From: Paraphysoderma sedebokerense
Lineage: Eukaryota > Blastocladiomycota > Physodermatomycetes > Physodermatales > Physodermataceae
Assembly (NCBI GenBank): GCA_025602915.1
Contig: JAHLJZ010000012.1
Location: forward strand, 310,001 to 374,000
DNA: 64,000 nucleotides
Reading direction: 5' to 3'
A program made the translations under genes and the position numbers. Below are positions 27,596 to 59,369 of the stretch, one piece after another. The notes below the pieces were generated by a model. That model searched no databases. It worked only from the letters and a program-made list of their open reading frames with translations, and was not told the DNA's origin. How positions within the stretch are numbered: position 1 is the stretch's first letter; each line of letters starts with the position of its first letter.

Positions 27596-28695
27596 TTAAT
27601 CACCTTTTCTAAGAGCATCCAATCGTGCTTGCAGCGCATCATCATCTGCCCCTCCACCAGCTCCTTCCAGCTGCGCGACTTTATTCGAAGCTGTGACGCC
27701 TGTAGAAGTAGCAAGCGATGTCGTCGGTGCATCAACAAGCTGTGACAGAGTTAACAGATGACCGATAAATGTCAGTAAGGATTGAAAGCATTGTAATAGC
27801 ATTCTCGCCGGTAAACCTGAAGTTCATTTGAAGTGCTAAAATGAACTTCATGAAACTCACCGACTGATCCAACTGTATGCCAATTTCATCCAAAACTTTG
27901 GCCACAATCTCGTCCTCGGCTTCTTCGTCATCTTCACCTTCCATAACATCATCAATAGCATCATTCATCATCTCTTCTTTCATATCCATCATTTCTGATT
28001 CTTTTTCAAAATCCATCATAATTTTCTGTATCTGGGGGAGATTAATCTGTTTATTCATTGATCTCATAGCTTTCGTAACTCCTTTCATCGCTTCTGCCAT
28101 AGCTTGGTTAGATCGGAGCGTCTATAAATGCGTCGAACGTAGGCAATATCACATATTAGTTAGAAGATACTCAATAATCAAAATGCAGATGGTTAAGTAG
28201 GATGTACACAAGAGTAAAGGTTGCATTTACTTGAATTCGCAGGCCTACGGCCTGCAGCTGTGTTCTCATTTGATAAAATTTCTGGACGTATTTCCGCGTT
28301 CGTACCAAATCTTTGGCCATAATTTTGGTGGCATTCTAATTTCCACATCAGAGCAAAAATATCAATATAAATATAATGCCTTTGATTAGTCAAATACTCC
28401 CTCAGAAACTGTGACAGGGCATACTCTAGAGCAATAAGAGTTGTCCTCCCGCAGTCGGTCATAACCATCCGTGTATGAAGTCGAAAGACCCCAGCAATTA
28501 GGATAAAACTCAAGAACAATATCGAACCATTTGACCAGCTTTAGCCGTTTTCTTTATATCCATAATCAATTTTTTCTCTTGTTGCTCTAATTTTTGTTTC
28601 TCACGATCCAAATCTCGAACAGCTTTGTTGAGAGCTCGTTGATGCTGTTTAAGCATTTCAGCGGGAGTTTTCCGCTTTCCGAATAGCATTTCCAT
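27596..28695 (-). CDS. VPS2: ESCRT-III subunit Vps2/CHMP2A
   Basis: ESCRT-III filaments cut membrane necks in endosomal sorting, cytokinesis and repair; Vps2 with Vps24 caps Snf7 polymers and recruits the ATPase Vps4. The gene starts MEMLFGKRKTPAEMLKQHQR at 28695 and has four or more introns. The basic N-terminal helices (ALNKAVRDLDREKQKLEQQE) are followed by AMAEAMKGVTKAMRSMNKQ, a Met/Asp/Glu-rich autoinhibitory part (MMDMKEEMMNDAIDDVMEGE) and a C-terminal MIM1 motif, ALQARLDALRKGD, which binds the MIT domain of Vps4. All hallmark positions for CHMP2A are present, so the protein should be functional. Divergent from the L7Ae-ankyrin gene over only 236 bp. Confidence 0.94.
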
Positions 28696-28931
28696 GTTGT
28701 TTAGAAGGATATGAATTGAATTTGAAGGTTGTGGTGATATTGGTCTCAGATGTAATCTGAGCCTTGTGTCAATGATAGTTATTTGTATTCAGTTTTGAAA
28801 GTAGCTGTTGCGGGAATCGGGAAACCGGCTTGTTCGCGGCCTGGCTTCTCCAACTCTTGAATACAATATAGACATTCCACAACATAAATTATAAGACATT
28901 CATCACAACACATTCGCCCTCGTCCCATTGT
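28696..28931. promoter_or_regulatory. Short bidirectional promoter, VPS2 and L7Ae-ankyrin gene
   Basis: Only 236 bp separate two start codons facing away from each other, so both promoters must share it. No clear TATA box or known factor site recognised. Confidence 0.45.
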
Positions 28932-31900
28932 ATGTCGACTCCGTCCATGTCAAATCGGAAGTCTGCTTCGGAAGATGCGAACACTTCCCTGTCCACGTCT
29001 GAACCGAAGTTATCAAAGAGAGCCTTAAAGCGATTGAAATACAAACCGAAGCCGACAACGTTAGCCGATCTTATAACTTCTCAAATTCAGGTCATTTGAA
29101 GTACTATTAATAGTATGTTTCGTTATATTGACATTGTCCTTTTGCTCTCCATGATTAGGAACAAGTTTCGACGTCAGAACACCAGATTCCGCCGGATCCG
29201 ATTGCCGTATCATCAGCTCAACCGAATCGGACCACTGAAATATCCAGCAATAAAGCCTCACCAAGCACACAACATGCAACTTCTTTGACGGCGGAAAAGG
29301 CCCCGGGAAAATCACAGGTGCTTGGACAAAAAACCAAGTCGGTATGGAACAATTCAGGATCGTCCGGAGTGGCAGCCAATTGTGACATGACTGTCGGAGG
29401 TGACGAGGCAACTCAAAAAGTCAAGAAGAAGCGGAGGCCTCGAAAGAAACCAGCTCAATCAGATCCACAGTGTCGACAGATTAAGTTGACTTTACAGAGG
29501 GCATCGACGTTAGATCCCGGCGAAACTCAAGGGTCTGTGCTGTTCAAAACGATCAAATGGTATGAACTCGTACAAACCCAAACCATATTATGTAGATATT
29601 GCGATCATCTAATCACTCCAAAGTTGGAAGAGACTGTGAAATTACTGCTACATGATTTGTACCGTTTTCAATCACGACAATTTAAACTCAATCCTATCAA
29701 GGTAAAATTTATCATTTCATAGATCCCTATCTCAATTGTAACATCTTCGTTCGTGGGGCCCAATTAGGCAAAATCAAAGAAACGTTATTTCACCGGATTG
29801 AAAGAAATTGCGAAGCTATTAAAGCGGAGGAAAAATCGCGTAAAGGCTGTTATTATGGCAAAGAATATCAACCCCAATGAAGGTTTTATTCAAATTTCAA
29901 TACCATTTACATATTTTTTTATCTATTTTATCTGGAAAGTGACACATTTTATTGTTAGCGGACATAAGAGAACAGCTTCAATTCATTCAACGCGAATGTC
30001 GTGCAAATTCAATACCTATAATATATTCTCTCACTCGTCGTCAAATTGCTAATATTCTTCGACCTTCATCGTCCCCGAATGTCATTTCGTCGAGCGCCCC
30101 AACAAGCGAAAAACATAAAGCAGGAAAATACAAATCGCGTGGACCAAAACGTTCCGTTCTTGTATCCGCACTCGCAATTGTTGACCCGTCCGGTTCGGAA
30201 ATAAATTATCAAAATGCACTATCCGTCGTCGAGACACTTCGCCAAGAGTTTTCCGATCAATTCAGTATGTCTGCAGTTTCAACTCTTCAACACTCTTCAT
30301 CGGGGTTTCAAGTGAACCCACGATTGGAAAATCCAATTTGGATAGCCTGTTACTGGGGCTACGACATTCAAGTCGTTAAATCCTGTGTCATAAATGGTTG
30401 GGATATCAACCAAATTGATTGCATATATGGATACACTCCCTTTGCGGCCGCAATTTTCAATTGTCATGAAACTTTGTGCCTAGATATGTTAGAAGAGTAC
30501 CATAAGAGAATGGATTTGTCTCTGAAATCGTTCGCCGGAGAATCTATCTTCTGGTTGTCCTGTTTCAAAGGCCTTGCAAATTTGACAGAAAAGTTGTTGG
30601 AATTGGTGCCGATGTTGGTGAACACCACGAACGCCGCGAAATTAACACCACTGATGGTTGCCTGCCGAGAAGGTCATGGTGGATGTGTGAAAGCTATACT
30701 CGATTGGGCTCGAACTGAACATAATGGGATGTTACAACCAGATCGAAACTTGGATTGGAACGCGAAAGACCTGAACGGGTATTCTGCGCTGTCATGGTGC
30801 TGTGTAAATGGAGATTTGACCAATTTCGTATCGCTGATGGAATATATCCGACTTGCGTTAAGCTCTGAGCCTTCCGCTGATGTTGAACGAAAGAACGACG
30901 TAGAAATTGTCGCAGCAGTAGATGATTTTCTTCGAAGCTTGATCCTTGAAGAAAGAGACCAGCAACAAAAATCTTTAGCGATTCTGGCAACCGAAAAATG
31001 TCATCTACATATTCTAAAATACTTAGTTGACTTCACGTCGACGAAACCACAGCCTTCCCCCACATCGTCAACTTCCTATAATTCCAAATCCGCTAGCCTA
31101 TCGACAAGTACCGCTTCGAAACGATTAACATCGTCAAAGTCATTCAAGTCGCCAAAGGCGTCAGAAGTATCCGCACAACAGTCAACGCCAAACCTCACAT
31201 ATCTTTTAAGTCGTGATTCACAGAAGAAATCACCAATTCACTACGCGATTCGGAATGGCGATGTCGAAATAGTGAAGTATTTGGTGTGGAATATCAAAAT
31301 TCCGTTATCGCAAGTTAATTCTAATGACAGTGAAAACGGAGAAACTAATAGCCACGAAGCTATGCTAAGTCATTCCGAAATTTTAGAGTCGGTCAAATGG
31401 ATCGAGTCTACTGTTGATGAAGCTGTCAAGAAAGACGACAATATGTGGGTGAGTTGTGTAGGCGATGAGCATCACAATGCAAGTGTTAGAACGAAAGTCG
31501 ATTTGGCGAGTTCAAAGATTGAAGTTGAAAGTGAGCTCTCGGACGATGAAAGTGAAAGTGAGAGTGAAAGTGATGATTCCTCAGACGATAGTGACGAAAG
31601 TAGTGATAGTAGTGATACAAGCAGTAGTGATAGCGAAGATTCGAGTGATAGTTCCTCGAATTCTTCAGAGTCAGATACAAGTAGCGATTCAGACGATTCA
31701 GACACTGATTCAGACTCCGCTTCTGATACTTCAATTCAAATAACTTCCTCTACAAAGTCACCTACATCTTTGTCCTACTCTTCTTCACCAAACCAGCCAT
31801 CAACAAGTCAAGCAGAAACAACCAAATCAACGTCATTAATGATTAAGCTGAATGGAACTCAACAGCCAGCGTCTATGTCAAAACGGTCAGTCGGCACCTC

Positions 31901-32111
31901 AAACACCCAATCCCCATCTACTTCTTCAGTGTCGTCCTCTCCTCAATCATCAGGTCAAGATTCGCGAAAAAATGTTTCTCTTTTGCGTATCAGAAGAATA
32001 TTGCTCAGATGGATAAACGGTAATACTGAGCCAGTGGAACTAAGAATGGGAAAATGGAAGAAAATGAAGTGGAATGAAGCAAAGAAGAATAAGAAATTGT
32101 TCGGTGCATAG
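28932..32111 (+). CDS. SBP2-like L7Ae RNA-binding domain fused to ankyrin repeats
   Basis: Exons 28932-29090, 29159-29701, 29768-29882 and 29959-32111 join in phase to 989 residues. The N-terminal 200 residues are Ser/Lys-rich and contain KKKRRPRKKPAQS. Around residues 215-370 lies an L7Ae-type domain of the SECIS-binding-protein-2 kind: LNPIKAKSKKRYFTGLKEIA, KLLKRRKNRVKAVIMAKNI, then RANSIPIIYSLTRRQIANIL and SVLVSALAIVDPSG, with an added basic loop (EKHKAGKYKSRGPKR). From about residue 390 come ankyrin-like repeats (NPIWIACYWGYDIQ, YGYTPFAAAIFNCHE, TPLMVACREGHGGCVKAILD) and a further one near residue 690 (SPIHYAIRNGDVEIVKYLV). An acidic Ser/Asp run (about 797-867) and a basic tail end the protein. 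SBP2 recodes UGA as selenocysteine in animals; here only RNA binding is a fair inference. Confidence 0.85.
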
Positions 32112-46898: not shown

Positions 46899-49800
46899 AT
46901 GGCCGTTCTGGCACCATTCATCCCGGTCTTTGTCCCCCTCGATGTCCAACTCAGTCTTGTTAAGCTCTCTTACGATGCCTCCTCTTGGATTCTTATCCTT
47001 ATTATCATTCTCCTTTTAATTCTATACGGTTTTGTTAAATTGATATTTGAAACTAAAATAGCGTCTGATGCATTCAAGCCCAACCAGCAAGGTATGTCAA
47101 TTGAATTGAAACATTTCCAATGTACAAGTTTCATTAAAATATCTGAATGGTATCTATTTTAGCGGTCGTGAAATTCGTACACCATGCCGTTCATACGAAC
47201 CTTCTCCCAAGATGCCTAATTCCGTACATTACAACATTCAACCTTCCAACAATGAATCTCGCCAGATTCTATTTTATGACATTCGTATTTATAATGATAC
47301 TTTTGTTCTCTTTATCGACCAGTTACGACGTATTGATAGTTTCCGTTGGGGCTAATCGTTTCGGACATATCGCGTTGTCGCTTCTACTACTGACTTATTT
47401 ATTGTCGTCGCGGACAATATCTCCGTTTGTACAGCTACTAAATATTCCTCAATACACTCTCATCGCGCTTCATAAATTCATTGCGACGCTGTTCGTGTTA
47501 ATGGTCACCGTACATTTCAGTATACACACAGGATACTGGGCCTCGTTCAATATGTTGGGGATAAATTATCAGCGTGATATCATCATATTCGGATTAATTG
47601 CGTATATTTGTTTACTTTTGATTTTATTTTCGTCCACCGCGATTGTTCGAAGGAGATTTTACAATTTGTTCTACGGAAGCCACGTATTTCTGTACACGTT
47701 AATAACCTTGTTCGTTCTCCTGCATACACCACACGCTACGAGTTACTTCATCATTGTAATGATATTTCATATTTTCGAAAGAATCATTAGATTTATTCGA
47801 TTGAACGAAACATGTCAGATTGTTGAATTTCAGCAGTGCAAAGATTTAAAAGTCGTCCGAATGAGTGTTAAAGTTGGGACGAATACGGTGGCTGGCGAAG
47901 GTTCACCAGAGGTAGATACTATGATGGTCAAAGTAACCAAACTGTTTGCCAAAGTTGCTACAATGATTCGGTCAAGGATGAGGAAACCGCCTAAACCGGG
48001 TTCATACGCGCATATCATGTTTCCACCGGTTCCGATTACCCATCCTTTCACTATTGTTTCCTACAAAGATTCTACGTTTACGTTCTTTATTAAATCTTCG
48101 ACGTTTACTGAAGCAGAATTGCAGTTAAGGTCAAAGTTAAAAGTGGTATCGGTTGCATCGAACTTACTAAACTCTGATACAGACTGGAAAGTGAATCCGC
48201 TCAAAGTCGGATTTGACGGACCGTTTAGAGAAAATTATCAGTTGAATTTATTCGAGTGTGTAGTTTTAGTTGCCACTGGTATTGGTATTACTCCTTGGAT
48301 TAGTTGGTTGGATTGGTTTGTAGAGCAATGGAACATCAAAGAAAGCAAAGAAGGTGAACCCAATACCCGCAGGGTTAATACAATTAGAGTCATGCTCATT
48401 TGGGTAGTGAAGGATCTGAGTACGTTTCTCTTCTTCTCCTGTCCTTGATAAACTGAAAGCAAGTCTTATTGATTTTAACATTGGTTCTCACATCTGATAT
48501 GTTGCCTTATTATTGTATTTTAATTTCTCAGAAATCCTGGAGTTATGGACACCGCCGTCCCATCCTAATCTCGTTACAGTCATACATGTTACTTCAAATT
48601 CATCCGAGGATGTTCCAGGGGAAGGATTCACACGTCAACGTCCAACTCTGATACCATATCCAGTTCCTGCGGACACCTTGACGTCGGCGAAACCAGTTGA
48701 AACAAATGAAAATACGAAAAATTCTAGTAATGGCGATGAAATCAAACCCACCGAGTCAATTAAGGCGAATGAACCGATCGAAGAGGTCAAGATTGTGGTT
48801 GAGAAAGTCGAAAATCTCAAGCAAGTTGAGCCAGACGGTCGTGGAGAATCAGCCAAACAGGAAACAAATACTCAGACTGTCGACCCCGCCGAGCTCAGTG
48901 CGGTTAATTTGAAAACCAACGATGAAACTCGACCCTCGAAAACCTCTAACGCAAGTCAAACTTCAGCGAGTACTCTTTACAACGCAATTAATTTGACCGA
49001 CGAAGCTCGCCTGATCTTAGACGGAATTAACAGTGACAACGAAGGTAGCCCGGGGCAAGACAAAAAGACAGGGCAGAATGCAGGGGCTACAATTGTCGAC
49101 AATCAAGAAGTTACGCCAACCCCGACATCAGAGAAAAGCAAGAAGCGAGTCAGTTTTATGCTTCCTCCCGAAGCAGAAAGTGTTGAAGATATTGACGACG
49201 ACGGAGATAGTGAAGAAGAAGAAGATTCTGAAGAAGATCAAAGTGACGAGGGTGAGGAAGAGGACACTGCTGAAAACGATGACGAAGGATCACAGAAGGA
49301 AGAAAATTTCGAGAACCCCACTGCTGATGTCAGCCACAAGCCAACAGAGAGGAATCAACTTGATATTGTACATGATGTGACTGTAAAACAGGCTTCAACA
49401 TCTGAAGAATCAACGCGCCAACCAGCAACGTTATTGGCGCCTTCTCTTGCTGCAGATTCCGCCGAACCCCAAAAAATGGACACTCATAACGAAAACATCA
49501 AAGCAAAAGTTGAAGTGACCGAGAATATACATGAAGCAAATGAGGTCAAATCAGTAGTTGTTACGATAGAGAATACAGACAAGATTGACGCTGTGAATAA
49601 GAATGCAGAGAAATCGGTGAAAATAGAAACTGAAGACCATAATACCGAGACAGGACATAAGAATGTGGAAGAGAGCAATGTGAAAGATTCTGGGGAGATA
49701 ACGGGATATGTGAAACGTATCGGGAGACCGAACTTCAACGACGTTATTCAGCAATTGTCGAGAGGAGCAGAAGAAATTGATGGAAGACTAACTATTTTCA

Positions 49801-50017
49801 AAAACAGCAAGAGTGTTGCTATCGGTGGTATGTATTACTTGCACGCAACTATCTGCATGAGATCTTTGAAGTTGACCATTTTCTTACCTACGCTCTTCTT
49901 ATTAAACTGATAGTGTGCGCGCCGTATCCGGTTGTTCATGACCTGCGAGAGGCAGTGTCGACGTTGAGAAATAAGGAAAAGATGTGGTGGGTTGTCACGG
50001 AATCATTTGAAGTCTAA
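46899..50017 (+). CDS. Ferric-reductase-type flavocytochrome with large acidic insertion
   Basis: FRE/NOX-superfamily membrane reductase that moves electrons from NADPH via FAD and two hemes across a membrane. Exons 46899-47091, 47163-48419, 48532-49827 and 49914-50017 give 949 residues. The start MAVLAPFIPVF is in GACCATGG context. Heme ligands: His in LHKFIATLFVLMVTVHF (about 167, 181) and in SHVFLYTLITLFVLLH (about 238, 252), both pairs 14 apart as in FRE proteins. FAD motif THPFTIV and NADPH motif VATGIGITPWISW are present. The C-terminal motif reads CAPYPV where the family has CGP. Between the last two nucleotide-binding strands lies a roughly 380-residue disordered, Glu/Asp-rich insertion with KKRVSF near residue 690, a PP1-docking type motif. 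It pairs with a shorter paralog 500 bp downstream. Confidence 0.9.
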
Positions 50018-50507
50018 TCAGAGCTTTCAAGTTGACTGAATCTACAATTTGAATGCAACCTGACTGGAAGTAGTGAAGTAGACATAGAGGGAGCTATGAG
50101 TGATATGGTCACGCATGCTGATTAGTGCTTTTGTGTGTATATTATTCCATATATTTGGTTATCATAATATAGTTTTTGGTGTATAACCTTGTTGAGAATC
50201 AGAAGTAATGCATCATCGTTATAAAAATAGCCATCTACAGAGTTGTACAGACTTATCCAGTGATGATTATCAAATTTATTTCAGTGGAAGAATGAGATTC
50301 CCTTGACGTGACTGGGAGAATGACGACAAGCGAGATGCTGTCCGACGCGCGCGTTTGATTGGACCGCGCAATGCAGCACGGAAGATGATTGGCCGACGCG
50401 TCCTGATGATGGAAGGGAACAAAAACAATCCACTGCGCTCGCTTACTGTCGCATCCTCTCCGAAATTCCCTCATCCATCTGCACCATCTTTCCGCACGCT
50501 CGTCGCC
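50018..50507. promoter_or_regulatory. Spacer between the two reductase genes
   Basis: 490 bp; should contain the promoter of the second reductase. A GC-rich part (50330-50420) directly precedes the coding region. An in-frame ATG lies upstream at about 50388 but is not matched by the paralog. Confidence 0.4.
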
Positions 50508-52480
50508 ATGTCGTCGGACACTTTGCCTGTAGATGCGAGGAATAGTCTCGTCAAACTCTCCTTCGAAGCCTCCTCCTGGACCCTGGTCGCTATCTTGTTT
50601 GCTACTATTTTCCTATGGGGTGCCTTGAGACCCTTGTATCAACGGCAGCTTGCTAATGGGAATAACGGATTTGGTGAGTACTCATTGCGTACTGTATATG
50701 CAATTTGACAGAATCTCTAAAAGTATTCAACTCCAATAGTATACAAAGTTCTTCACCACGCCATGAACACAAACGTCCTTCCCACTGTCCTGTCTTCCTT
50801 TACATTGTTCAACTTGCCAACATTCACTCTAGCCAAACTGTACTTTTATCTCTTCATTTTCGCTATTGTCGCCGTCTTTTCTTTATCCACAGATTTTTCT
50901 CCCGGTGCAGAATCGTCCTATAATCGATTTGGCCATATCACCTTCTCTCTCCTATTATTCACGTTTACACTTTCTTCACGCTCACTTTCACCTTTCGTCC
51001 ACGTTCTGAAAATTCCACAATACTCTATCCTTTCCCTGCACAAATTCATCTCATTTCTGGCCGTCGTTTGTGTTACCATTCATTTCAGTCTTCACATCTC
51101 TTACTGGAGTTCCCTAGATTTTGTGAGCGATAACCTTGAGCGACCAATCATTCGATACGGACTTACGGCGTACATTTCTTTCCTACTGATTTTGGTGTTA
51201 TCGAGCAACATTGTCCGGAGAAAAGTTTACAAACTGTTCTATGCGAGCCATGTGATTCTTTACACTCTGATCGTTGTCTTTATTTACTTGCATACCGACG
51301 AATTCAAGATATATTTGATTTTGATTGCGATTTTTCATTTCATGGACAGAGCAGCCAGAGGGATGAAGTTACAAAAGCCATCTTGGATTGTGGAAGTCAA
51401 ACAGTATCCCGATTTACAAGTGACAAAACTCGTCGTTCATCATGGTGATATATTGGCTTCTTCGGATCCTTCCGCTGCTGAATCGGTATCGACAGATCCA
51501 AAATCTGGCACAAATCGTGCAGCTCAACCTGGCTCATACGCTCATATCATGTTCCCTCCTGTCCCGGTCACCCATCCTTTTACTATTGCACAATCGACAC
51601 ATACTTCGTCAACGCTTATTGTCAAATCATCGGGAGCCCCAAATTCATTTACTTCAAAACTGTTGAGTATGCAACATGACAAATCAAAACCACTCAAAAT
51701 TGGATTTGAAGGTCCATTTTCTGAAGGTTATAGATTGGATTTATTTGAATCTGTCGTTCTAGTTGCTACCGGAATTGGTATCACTCCATGGATGTCATGG
51801 TTGGAATCATTCGTGCGTCAATGGGAACAGCTGGAAAAAGGCGAAGGAGACGTCAAAACGAAAAAAGTAGTGTTGGTGTGGATCGTCAAAGATCTAAGTA
51901 GGTTTCTTCTCTTTTCGTTCACCCTCTTCCCGTTTGGGTTGAATTGGACATTTTGTATATAATTGTCTGCTAACCTTCCACTTAAACTTGAAATCTTCGC
52001 TTCGCAGATATATTGCAACTCTGGACCCCTCCTTCTCACCCAAATTTAGTCACAATCATCTACACTACCTCCTCTTCATCCTCTAATCCTGGTCCGTCGA
52101 CGCAGGCAACTCCAGAAATTCCGCTTCCACAGATAACAGGTGCCTCAGGTGAGACGCCTTCAGAGCGTCAAGTGTCTCCAAGTTATGTTCATCGAAATGG
52201 AAGACCTAAGATGAACGCAATCGTGGAGGAATTGGCTGTGGATGGGAATGATCGCGGCTTGAATGAAATGGTCAAACCGATAAAGGAAAGTAATAATGTC
52301 GCTGTTGCAGGTATGCGCGCTCTTTCACTTCTTAATTACGTTAGTATCATACTCACGTCCGTTTTCATTTTAGTATGCGCACCGTACCCTGTTTTACACG
52401 ATATGCGTAATGCAGTGTCTACATTGCGAAAGCGAAATGGAAAATTGTGGTGGGTTTTCAGTGAGAGTTTTGAAGTGTAA
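50508..52480 (+). CDS. Ferric-reductase-type flavocytochrome, compact paralog
   Basis: Exons 50508-50673, 50740-51897, 52008-52310 and 52374-52480 give 577 residues. All three introns sit at the same positions and phases as in the upstream gene, showing a tandem duplication. Same parts: LVKLSFEASSW, heme His in LHKFISFLAVVCVTIHF and SHVILYTLIVVFIYLH, THPFTIA for FAD, VATGIGITPWMSW for NADPH, and the CAPYPV ending followed by WWVFSESFEV. The region that holds the acidic insertion in the first copy is here only about 80 residues, Ser/Pro-rich, without RVSF. The start is the ATG that matches the paralog's first helix; an upstream in-frame ATG could add about 40 residues. Likely substrates are ferric iron or oxygen; undecided. 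Confidence 0.92.
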
Positions 52481-57050: not shown

Positions 57051-58150
57051 TTATTTTTGTAAAATAACGGCATAGTAGTTTGGCCAAATGCATTCTTGAT
57101 CCAAAAATTTGTGGATCTGATCTTTAATGAATTTTTCTAATTTCGATACGTTTTTTAAAACTTGATGCGTTTTGTCACCTATTGACGATTCGAACGTGAC
57201 GTCTTGAAGAAGACTTTTTGATGACGGTGAAAACAGTTGGGATTATACAAAATGCGGGGGAGCAAAGGAAAAGAAAAGAAAACAAAAAGTGAGTGAATTG
57301 GACGGACGAGGTAAAAGGGTCCAATTTTGGATGCGGAACATGGTAAACATGATGAGTAGGAGAATGACAAGGAATCTGCGAGGTACCTGGTATTACCAGC
57401 TTCATCTTCACTTTCCAAGAAACAAAAATGAATTCTCTCGCCGTTGAGAATCGAGACGACTCCGATTCCGTCGAATTTGCAACCACGAAGAGTCAATTCA
57501 ATCGGTATACTCATAAATTTCGGAGTCGGTTGATTCAAAATCAATTCTGTACTTATTTTCATTGATATATTACCTGTATAAGAGATATGTATATGAAATT
57601 GAATATCGTTGGGTGATTTTTGTAGGGGTAGGGAATGAGAGTGAGGGTGCGCATCAAAATAAGGATTGTGCTGAGATTGGGGAGGTTTAGTGTTGAAGGA
57701 ATCGCTCGAGGATCGATGGTGGCTTTCGTGGTGGTGGGTTCGATGGAAGGAAGAGACGGATGGTATTGATGGAGATTGAGTATTTGAGGTTGTGATGTTT
57801 TCTTGGGACGCTGGTAATGAGTTGGCGCGGGGTTTTAGAGATGCGTGTGTTTGTGAGGATGATCTATGGTGCGGATGAAACTGTTGTTGAAAACGAGTGG
57901 ACGAAAAGGATGAATGAGAGGAGGAGTCTAGGGATTCTGAATCAGATTCTGGTAGATAGAATTCGTCGAATGGATCGGTGATATCCAGGATTTCGATTTC
58001 TGGAGGGATGTCGCCAAAGGAGAGGTCAGAGATCGAGATGTGCCCAATAAAGTCCGGTTTTTCGGCGGCCAGGAATTTGTTGTTGAGAAATGTCTGGGCC
58101 GAGAGAGCGACATCTGCATCTATATTCGCAAAGTTGATGTTGAGCGACAT
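57051..58150 (-). CDS. MDM12: ERMES subunit Mdm12 (SMP domain)
   Basis: Mdm12 bridges Mmm1 (ER) and Mdm34 (mitochondrion) in the ERMES lipid-transfer complex. Two exons, 57397-58150 and 57051-57202, join in phase to 301 residues. The N-terminus MSLNINFANIDADVAL and the segment ISDLSFGDIPPEIEILDITD, PFDEFY are classic Mdm12. A His/Ser-rich loop (about residues 75-180) interrupts the SMP domain, as in other fungi. Then DIQFHIHISYTGNISMKIST and ERIHFCFLESEDEA, and after the intron DVTFESSIGDKTHQVLKNVS, KLEKFIKDQIHKFLDQECIW. The acceptor chosen (TTCTTCAAG) is the only one giving the conserved C-terminal helix; reading through the intron gives an unrelated tail. Confidence 0.93.
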
Positions 58151-59369
58151 ACTGCCTTCTGTTGCAAAGAGCCGGGATGGAAAATTCAGTAGTGTGGGTT
58201 GATTGAACCCGGTCAGTTGGATCTCGTTGTCACGTTCAAGTCACGCATCTACCACCCTGGACGACTCTTGCTGGTAGTCTCGGTGCCAGACTGAAAGCGG
58301 TTTGATAATCAAATTAACATGGAAGGACTCAAGATGAATATCGCCAGGCGAGTGAGTCTTTCAATTGGAACAACGCAAGGTTACGCAAGCTGCCATTCAA
58401 CTATGTGCGGGACGGGAAACACTGTGCTATAGATTCTCCGCGATAATGTGAATTGCAATCACGGAAGTAATATATGTTAGGAATAGATTGACCAAGTTGG
58501 ATGTTTGTATTGGTGCTTATACTGGAAGTTTGTTCCAGCTTTTGTGTAATTTTTGCCTGTCTATCGTTTCTTTGACACCTTTTCGCGTTCTTGGGTCAAT
58601 AAGGTCAATTAAGCAGTCACACCGCAGATTGCCAACCATGGTATTGGTATAACTATAGACTGTAGAGTGGGAGGCGAAATAAAATATTCCGTAATAGAGG
58701 ATAATGTACATGTATAGTGTATAAAGAAAGCGATTTCTCATGGCACATGGCGATAGGCAATATGGTTGGCGGAGATTTCAATAGGGAGTCAGAATGTTGA
58801 CCATCGCGCAGGGCGTGGTTCGGTGGTGCTTTGGTCAGACATGCCACCGGCAGAACCAGGAGATACAGGACAAGGAAGCGTATATGGAATCGTAGATGGA
58901 ATACAGATAGATGGAGTGAGAAGGGGAATAATGGTATCTAGGGCAGAGTGTATGAGAGGATGAGAGAGAGAGTCAAAGGACAGGGAGCAGGAGAGGTTGC
59001 AGGGTTGCCCAGTCGGTGGCCAGCACACAGTGAGCAAGCGAGAGAGGGAATTCCACCCAAGGACTCCCCTTTCTAGTTCTGGTCACCACATACACACAGA
59101 CACACTCCATCCACATACAACACACACTCCCTCTCCGCTGCGATGCATCCTCGGCCATAGCCCTGCATCCCCCTCTCCACACCCACACACACACCCCAAA
59201 ACACCACCTGACTCTCTCCACCCCATCTCTACCATCTCCAACAAGTCAACCCCAGTAAATGATATAATCTAATACATCTCTGCAAAAACATACCCCATCC
59301 AATACTACCCTCATCCTAATCCTCCCTCCAACACTCCCCAACATCCCCCCTCCCTCTCCCCCCTCCAAC
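58151..59369. promoter_or_regulatory. Divergent promoter with CA- and CT-rich 5' leader
   Basis: 1.2 kb between MDM12 and the LIM-RhoGAP gene. From about 59075 to 59368 the plus strand is strongly C-rich, with ACACAC runs and, directly before the ATG, a CCTCCCTCTCCCCCCTCC tract. Such pyrimidine-rich leaders are typical of fungal core promoters and 5' UTRs. No gene seen in 58160-59000. Confidence 0.5.

Follow-up and report, generated by a model that had tools for sequence, protein, structure and literature searches.

An SBP2-type L7Ae domain fused to ankyrin repeats in a blastocladiomycete fungus with genes for selenocysteine insertion

Introduction

Investigating a window of 64,000 nucleotides (positions 310,001 to 374,000, forward strand, of contig C12, JAHLJZ010000012.1) from the genome of Paraphysoderma sedebokerense (GCA_025602915.1; 27.3 Mb in 195 contigs), we observed a gene at positions 28932-32111 of the plus strand, which joins an L7Ae domain of the kind found in SBP2, the protein binding the selenocysteine insertion sequence (SECIS), to an array of ankyrin repeats. 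The same genome contains genes of the selenocysteine (Sec) machinery, and two selenoprotein genes found in it carry in-frame TGA codons. We estimate a probability of about 0.82 that the fused gene encodes an SBP2-type, SECIS-reading factor of a working Sec system. The protein is currently annotated as hypothetical only and offers a checkable case. P. sedebokerense is an algae-infecting Blastocladiomycete of the order Physodermatales.

One gene for L7Ae and ankyrin repeats

Four exons can be joined in frame into 989 codons, in agreement with the earlier note on this DNA, which described four exons in phase. Exon 1 (28932-29090, residues 1-53) provides the start codon of this model and is absent from the NCBI model; its donor, GTCATT, is unusual. 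Exon 2 (29159-29701, residues 54-234) encodes a basic linker and the SBP2-type lead-in RYCDHL..LLHDLYRFQSR, exon 3 (29768-29882, residues 235-272 plus base 1 of codon 273) the beginning of the L7Ae core with the motif TGLKEIAKLL, and exon 4 (29959-32111, residues 273-989 including the stop) the remaining L7Ae domain and the ankyrin repeats, followed by an acidic Ser/Asp tract and a basic tail. The NCBI hypothetical protein BKA69DRAFT_1173694 (hereafter P0001; 860 amino acids) corresponds to residues 130-989 of our model, so that the last two introns (2-3 and 3-4) have also been predicted independently, whereas exon 1, intron 1, the join between exons 1 and 2 and the first 129 residues are present in the 989-residue model only. 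Within 28932-29540 there are thus two alternative predicted starts, the one used by NCBI being M130 in exon 2, with exon 1 omitted.

The fusion does not depend on any splice, because the uninterrupted exon 4 encodes both the latter half of the L7Ae domain and, about 20 codons further on, the ankyrin repeats; this exon is contained in one open frame of 722 amino acids (29943-32111) in the list of open reading frames. Pfam recognises both parts, Ribosomal_L7Ae with an E-value of 5.3e-8, above its cut-off, and Ank_2 with 3.3e-21 (best stretch 480-561, with a further Ank match at 696-715). An error of assembly or of gene modelling which merged two separate genes would fit the unsettled 5' end and the different start of the NCBI model, but the proximity of L7Ae residues and ankyrin repeats in a single exon makes it extremely improbable, and we regard the fusion as confirmed at the sequence level.

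The SBP2-type L7Ae RNA-binding domain and its lead-in extend over 29594-30269 (residues 199-376, exons 2-4), as supported by the SBP2 profile, a match in the PDB and a structure model. The ankyrin region follows at 30324-31301 (residues ~395-720), comprising about seven repeats with two linker insertions, borders and number being judged by eye, and the acidic Ser/Asp tract described earlier is readily seen in the translation of 31530-31730.

The earlier note knew of no described L7Ae-ankyrin fusion, and no second one appeared among the matches of our protein searches. In one of them, P0001 was the only match among 688 candidates. The search for SBP2-type proteins was passed by 1260 of 7993 scored proteins, and among the 120 listed, P0001 alone contained ankyrin repeats; the ankyrin search was passed by seven of 7994, P0001 alone having an L7Ae domain and the six others lacking it according to precomputed Pfam lists. 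These searches require shared five-residue words, and the rows naming an organism in the SBP2-type search were, P0001 apart, all from animals; SBP2s of fungi and protists were therefore largely out of sight. No paper linking Paraphysoderma with selenocysteine was found in a literature search, nor any on a SECIS-binding protein with ankyrin repeats, as judged by title.

The L7Ae domain is of the SBP2 type

The assignment to SBP2 rather than to eL8, Nhp2 or Snu13 was put forward in the earlier note and held in a profile test: the SBP2 profile scores 63.5 bits on the protein, with 61.1 bits from residues 199-304 and a weak 0.9 bits for residues 335-376 alone, as against 0.4 (eL8), 5.1 (Nhp2), 1.1 (Snu13), 4.7 (eL30) and 1.2 bits (eS12) for five rival profiles, each built from one or two sequences. 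A sequence search of the PDB returned SBP2 (7zjw_B) with an E-value of 5.7e-11 and a sole further match with 0.5. In a tree of 21 rows the protein groups with SBP2 (support 81/85), on a long branch.

An alignment of this protein with 61 SBP2 matches (62 rows) contains 23 invariant columns. The lead-in quoted previously as SBP2-like corresponds to residues 231-249, and the SBP2 lead-in with its RFQxR motif is indeed present: RFQSR occupies residues 222-226, and every one of the 62 rows has the same F, Q and final R. RFQxR before the L7Ae core is required for Sec incorporation and is not conserved among L7Ae subgroups (PMC2746813). The glycine universal to L7Ae cores is G244 (G115 in P0001), likewise invariant and followed by the hydrophobic cluster VKAVIMA. 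Judged by its sequence, the L7Ae domain is SBP2-type.

Structure modelling points in the same direction. A second model (mean pLDDT, the predicted local confidence score, of 51) reaches 77 to 93 over P0001 residues 111-170 and ~80 to 84 over 461-500, and SBP2 on the ribosome was the best of its 315 Foldseek matches and the sole one at E ≤ 0.001, a result biased towards SBP2 by the input alignment of the model, which consisted of SBP2 sequences. The first model (pLDDT 47.6) gave no match in the fold search and was set aside. No ankyrin-labelled protein occurred among the 50 fold matches listed, the L7Ae domain dominating both fold lists.

Eight L7Ae matches in the genome belong to six genes, five of which were assigned by eye to eS12, Nhp2, eL8, Snu13 and eL30, the sixth being the L7Ae-ankyrin gene. 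The latter shares the L7Ae fold with these five families, but their profiles give at most 5.1 bits on it and the genome has a separate gene for each of them. It is the sole SBP2 candidate found by searches in which only the best candidates are scored, and a very divergent second SBP2 gene may exist.

Sec machinery and selenoprotein genes in the same genome

A tRNA-Sec gene with the anticodon TCA (UCA) was found at C2:223324-223409, scoring 72.5 bits (cut-off 47), its acceptor stem containing two non-standard pairs; the model used, RF01852, gave zero false positives across 42 fungal genomes in a benchmark (PMC5330540). A second, weaker match to the tRNA-Sec model is a tRNA-Ser. SecS is represented by 14 pieces, distributed over C63, C72 and C153, and in three of the pieces there is a TAA that we take for part of an intron; the threefold occurrence perhaps reflects uncollapsed haplotypes or duplicated contigs. 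Six SPS pieces on C4 and C94 were matched exon by exon, all under the SelD cut-off, and two of them span a TAG, again taken for intronic. Seven of the 16 eEFSec matches cluster at C8:489562-491593, among them a match to residues 439-511 of human eEFSec (45% identity, E-value 7.6e-16), presumably the C-terminal part outside the EF1A-like portion; the remaining nine, on seven other contigs, were taken for other GTPases.

The G+C content of the Sec loci (0.40-0.43) resembles that of the window (0.415), so these loci fit one genome, and on this comparison alone an algal contamination as their source is unlikely. A viral origin was also considered: scanning viral contigs with P0001, an approach reaching close relatives only, gave no match.

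Two genes have an in-frame TGA where Sec would be encoded. In SPS2 it lies at the Sec site (DLKGUGCK) of both copies, on C4 and C94, which show no difference in the first 2,196 bases compared and diverge downstream of the gene. SelenoH (C1:700719-701234 and upstream) consists of four exons with 171 codons and no stop besides the TGA, which encodes residue 89 (ERCNSUSVYK, with the motif CNSU). Genes for GPx (C33, C14) and MsrB (C74) have Cys where human GPX4 and MSRB1 have Sec. The selenoprotein screen was run as one joined query, and families not seen by it may still be present. Taken by sequence, UGA is very probably read as selenocysteine in P. sedebokerense. The earlier note left open whether the gene is an active factor, a relic or a reused protein, and named as markers tRNA-Sec, eEFSec, SecS, SPS2 and UGA-containing selenoprotein genes; all of them were found, and for this reason an active factor is favoured.

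Candidate SECIS elements

Hairpins were sought with a pattern of our own (TGA - helix - AA or CC - helix - GA; the first run allowed AA alone) and compared with a background of about 351 kb, comprising 222,806 bases from other, in part overlapping loci on both strands and the two strands of the window, and excluding seven loci (six SPS2, one SelenoH). Five background hairpins reached -9.4 kcal/mol or lower, one in the other loci and four in the window, and none -11.6 kcal/mol or lower.

About 71 nt past the SelenoH stop lies a hairpin (GTGAC...AGAC) of -9.5 kcal/mol with a long lower helix; none of 200 shuffles of this 3' untranslated region (UTR) reached that value and three reached -6. Downstream of SPS2 on C4 there are two hairpins, a proximal one at ~169 nt (CTGA, -11.6 kcal/mol) and a distal one at ~354 nt (TTGA, -15.6 kcal/mol), the shuffles reaching -11.6 in 0/200 and -9.5 in 1/200 cases. 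The corresponding values on C94 are -5.8 for the proximal and -10.8 kcal/mol for the distal hairpin (here starting with GTGA), with no shuffle out of 200 at -9.5. Since the proximal hairpin weakens from -11.6 to -5.8 between the two copies, it is probably not the element. The distal one retains an 11-pair helix in the C94 copy despite a changed 3' arm; together with the SelenoH hairpin, it is a likely candidate SECIS element.

Evidence weighing against a SECIS-reading factor

Several observations speak against the reading as an SBP2-type factor. Of the 89 columns in which the SBP2 rows are conserved to 95% or more, 37 are identical in this protein, the stretch GGLD and the ALG in ALGR differ from these rows, and an insert of approximately 30 residues (305-334; 30054-30143) lies within the domain, forming a gap between two stretches matched by the SBP2 profile, which itself has no such insert, and modelled with low confidence. 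The other half of standard SBP2 is the Sec incorporation domain (SID), whose core motif (human K517-R543) was not found in the N-terminal 198 residues; a SID profile built from SBP2 matches gives -3.0 bits on them, a value exceeded by 507 of 1000 shuffles. A weakly co-linear similarity of KPTTLADLI to human KPTSLKKII, seen with phmmer within a 1.2-bit stretch, was dropped, as profile and shuffles gave no support. Finally, for the SECIS elements which the earlier note also named as markers there are SECIS-like candidate hairpins after SelenoH and SPS2, and the Rfam model SECIS_1 matches nothing genome-wide at E ≤ 5, nor anything in SPS2 loci on C4 and C94. We file the whole protein, on its sequence, as an SBP2-type variant and not as a standard SBP2.

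The missing SID, the changed GGLD and ALG, the insert, the long branch and the new C-terminal half would all suit a protein derived from SBP2 and reused, for example as a kink-turn binder of other RNAs, with another, unrecognised protein reading SECIS elements. We consider this improbable: the genome contains tRNA-Sec, SecS, SPS2, eEFSec and two TGA-containing selenoprotein genes, and no second SBP2-like gene occurs among its L7Ae matches. Moreover, the SID is poorly conserved in the SBP2s of Dictyostelium discoideum and Plasmodium vivax and has a gene of its own in Aedes aegypti (PMC2746813), and because known SBP2s may thus have a poor or split SID, its absence weakens an SBP2 role without ruling it out.

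A decaying Sec system, of which the gene would be a leftover, is less probable still and in our view very unlikely. The small number of selenoprotein genes seen so far (two), Cys in GPx and MsrB and the lack of an Rfam SECIS match would agree with it, but the frames followed to their end, those of the 989-codon gene and of SelenoH, are intact, tRNA-Sec lies above its cut-off, both diverged SPS2 copies retain the distal hairpin, and an open frame of 722 codons is not expected to persist unused.

Proposed function

As an SBP2-type factor, the protein would bind, through its L7Ae domain, the kink-turn of SECIS hairpins in the SelenoH and SPS2 3' UTRs, and the RFQxR lead-in would help the ribosome to accept, at UGA, the Sec-tRNA that eEFSec delivers. 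The ankyrin array at the C-terminus would most likely serve as a protein-docking platform, possible partners being eEFSec or the ribosome, which are normally engaged with help of the SID. That the SID was lost and the ankyrin array took over holding eEFSec or the ribosome is a speculative proposal, and one that we consider rather unlikely.

Comparison with known systems

Animal SBP2, SECISBP2 and SBP2L share with this protein the SBP2-type L7Ae domain and the lead-in YC..LL..L.RFQ.R....P.KAK, as well as the co-occurrence with tRNA-Sec, eEFSec, SecS and SPS2 in one genome. The fungal protein differs from them in lacking a recognisable SID, in its domain insert, in the changed GGLD and ALG and in the ankyrin repeats and acidic tail which come after its RNA-binding domain. 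From the six other proteins matched in the ankyrin search, which it resembles by its ankyrin repeats (Ank_2), it differs in carrying L7Ae.

The nine Sec-using early-branching fungi reportedly go back to a study by Mariotti et al. 2019. Published statements on fungal Sec differ: fungi are said to lack Sec in two papers (PMC8559351, PMC7988114), elsewhere nine species from Chytridiomycota, Zoopagomycota and Mucoromycota are credited with Sec genes (PMC11378755), seven of the nine being Harpellales (PMC10386755), and SelenoH was found along with Sec genes in Zancudomyces (PMC12611240). P. sedebokerense resembles these early-branching Sec users as a non-Dikarya fungus with Sec machinery, and the Harpellales in having SelenoH (PMC12611240); unlike the nine, it belongs to Blastocladiomycota, a phylum not named in the accessible portions of these papers, and the comparison covers machinery genes and SelenoH.

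Neighbouring genes

Approximately 240 bases upstream of the L7Ae-ankyrin gene, judged by eye, a gene of the ESCRT-III (Snf7) family is located on the minus strand (27735-28788); being divergent and so close, they may have a promoter region in common. Further away, 47147-51962 (+) contains two nearby ferric-reductase-like frames, with a 470-amino-acid frame without Pfam match between them, and 57179-58240 (-) an MMM1-like frame.

Significance

Fungi have long been held to be Sec-less, and, as far as the available portions of the literature go, a Blastocladiomycete with Sec would add a fourth group of fungal Sec users and help to place the losses of Sec across fungi. An SBP2 with ankyrin repeats and without a recognisable SID would also allow to ask which parts of SBP2 the recoding of UGA needs. 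Should the ankyrin array indeed replace the SID, it would represent a second way for eukaryotes to recode UGA, in a phylum not named among Sec users in those sources.
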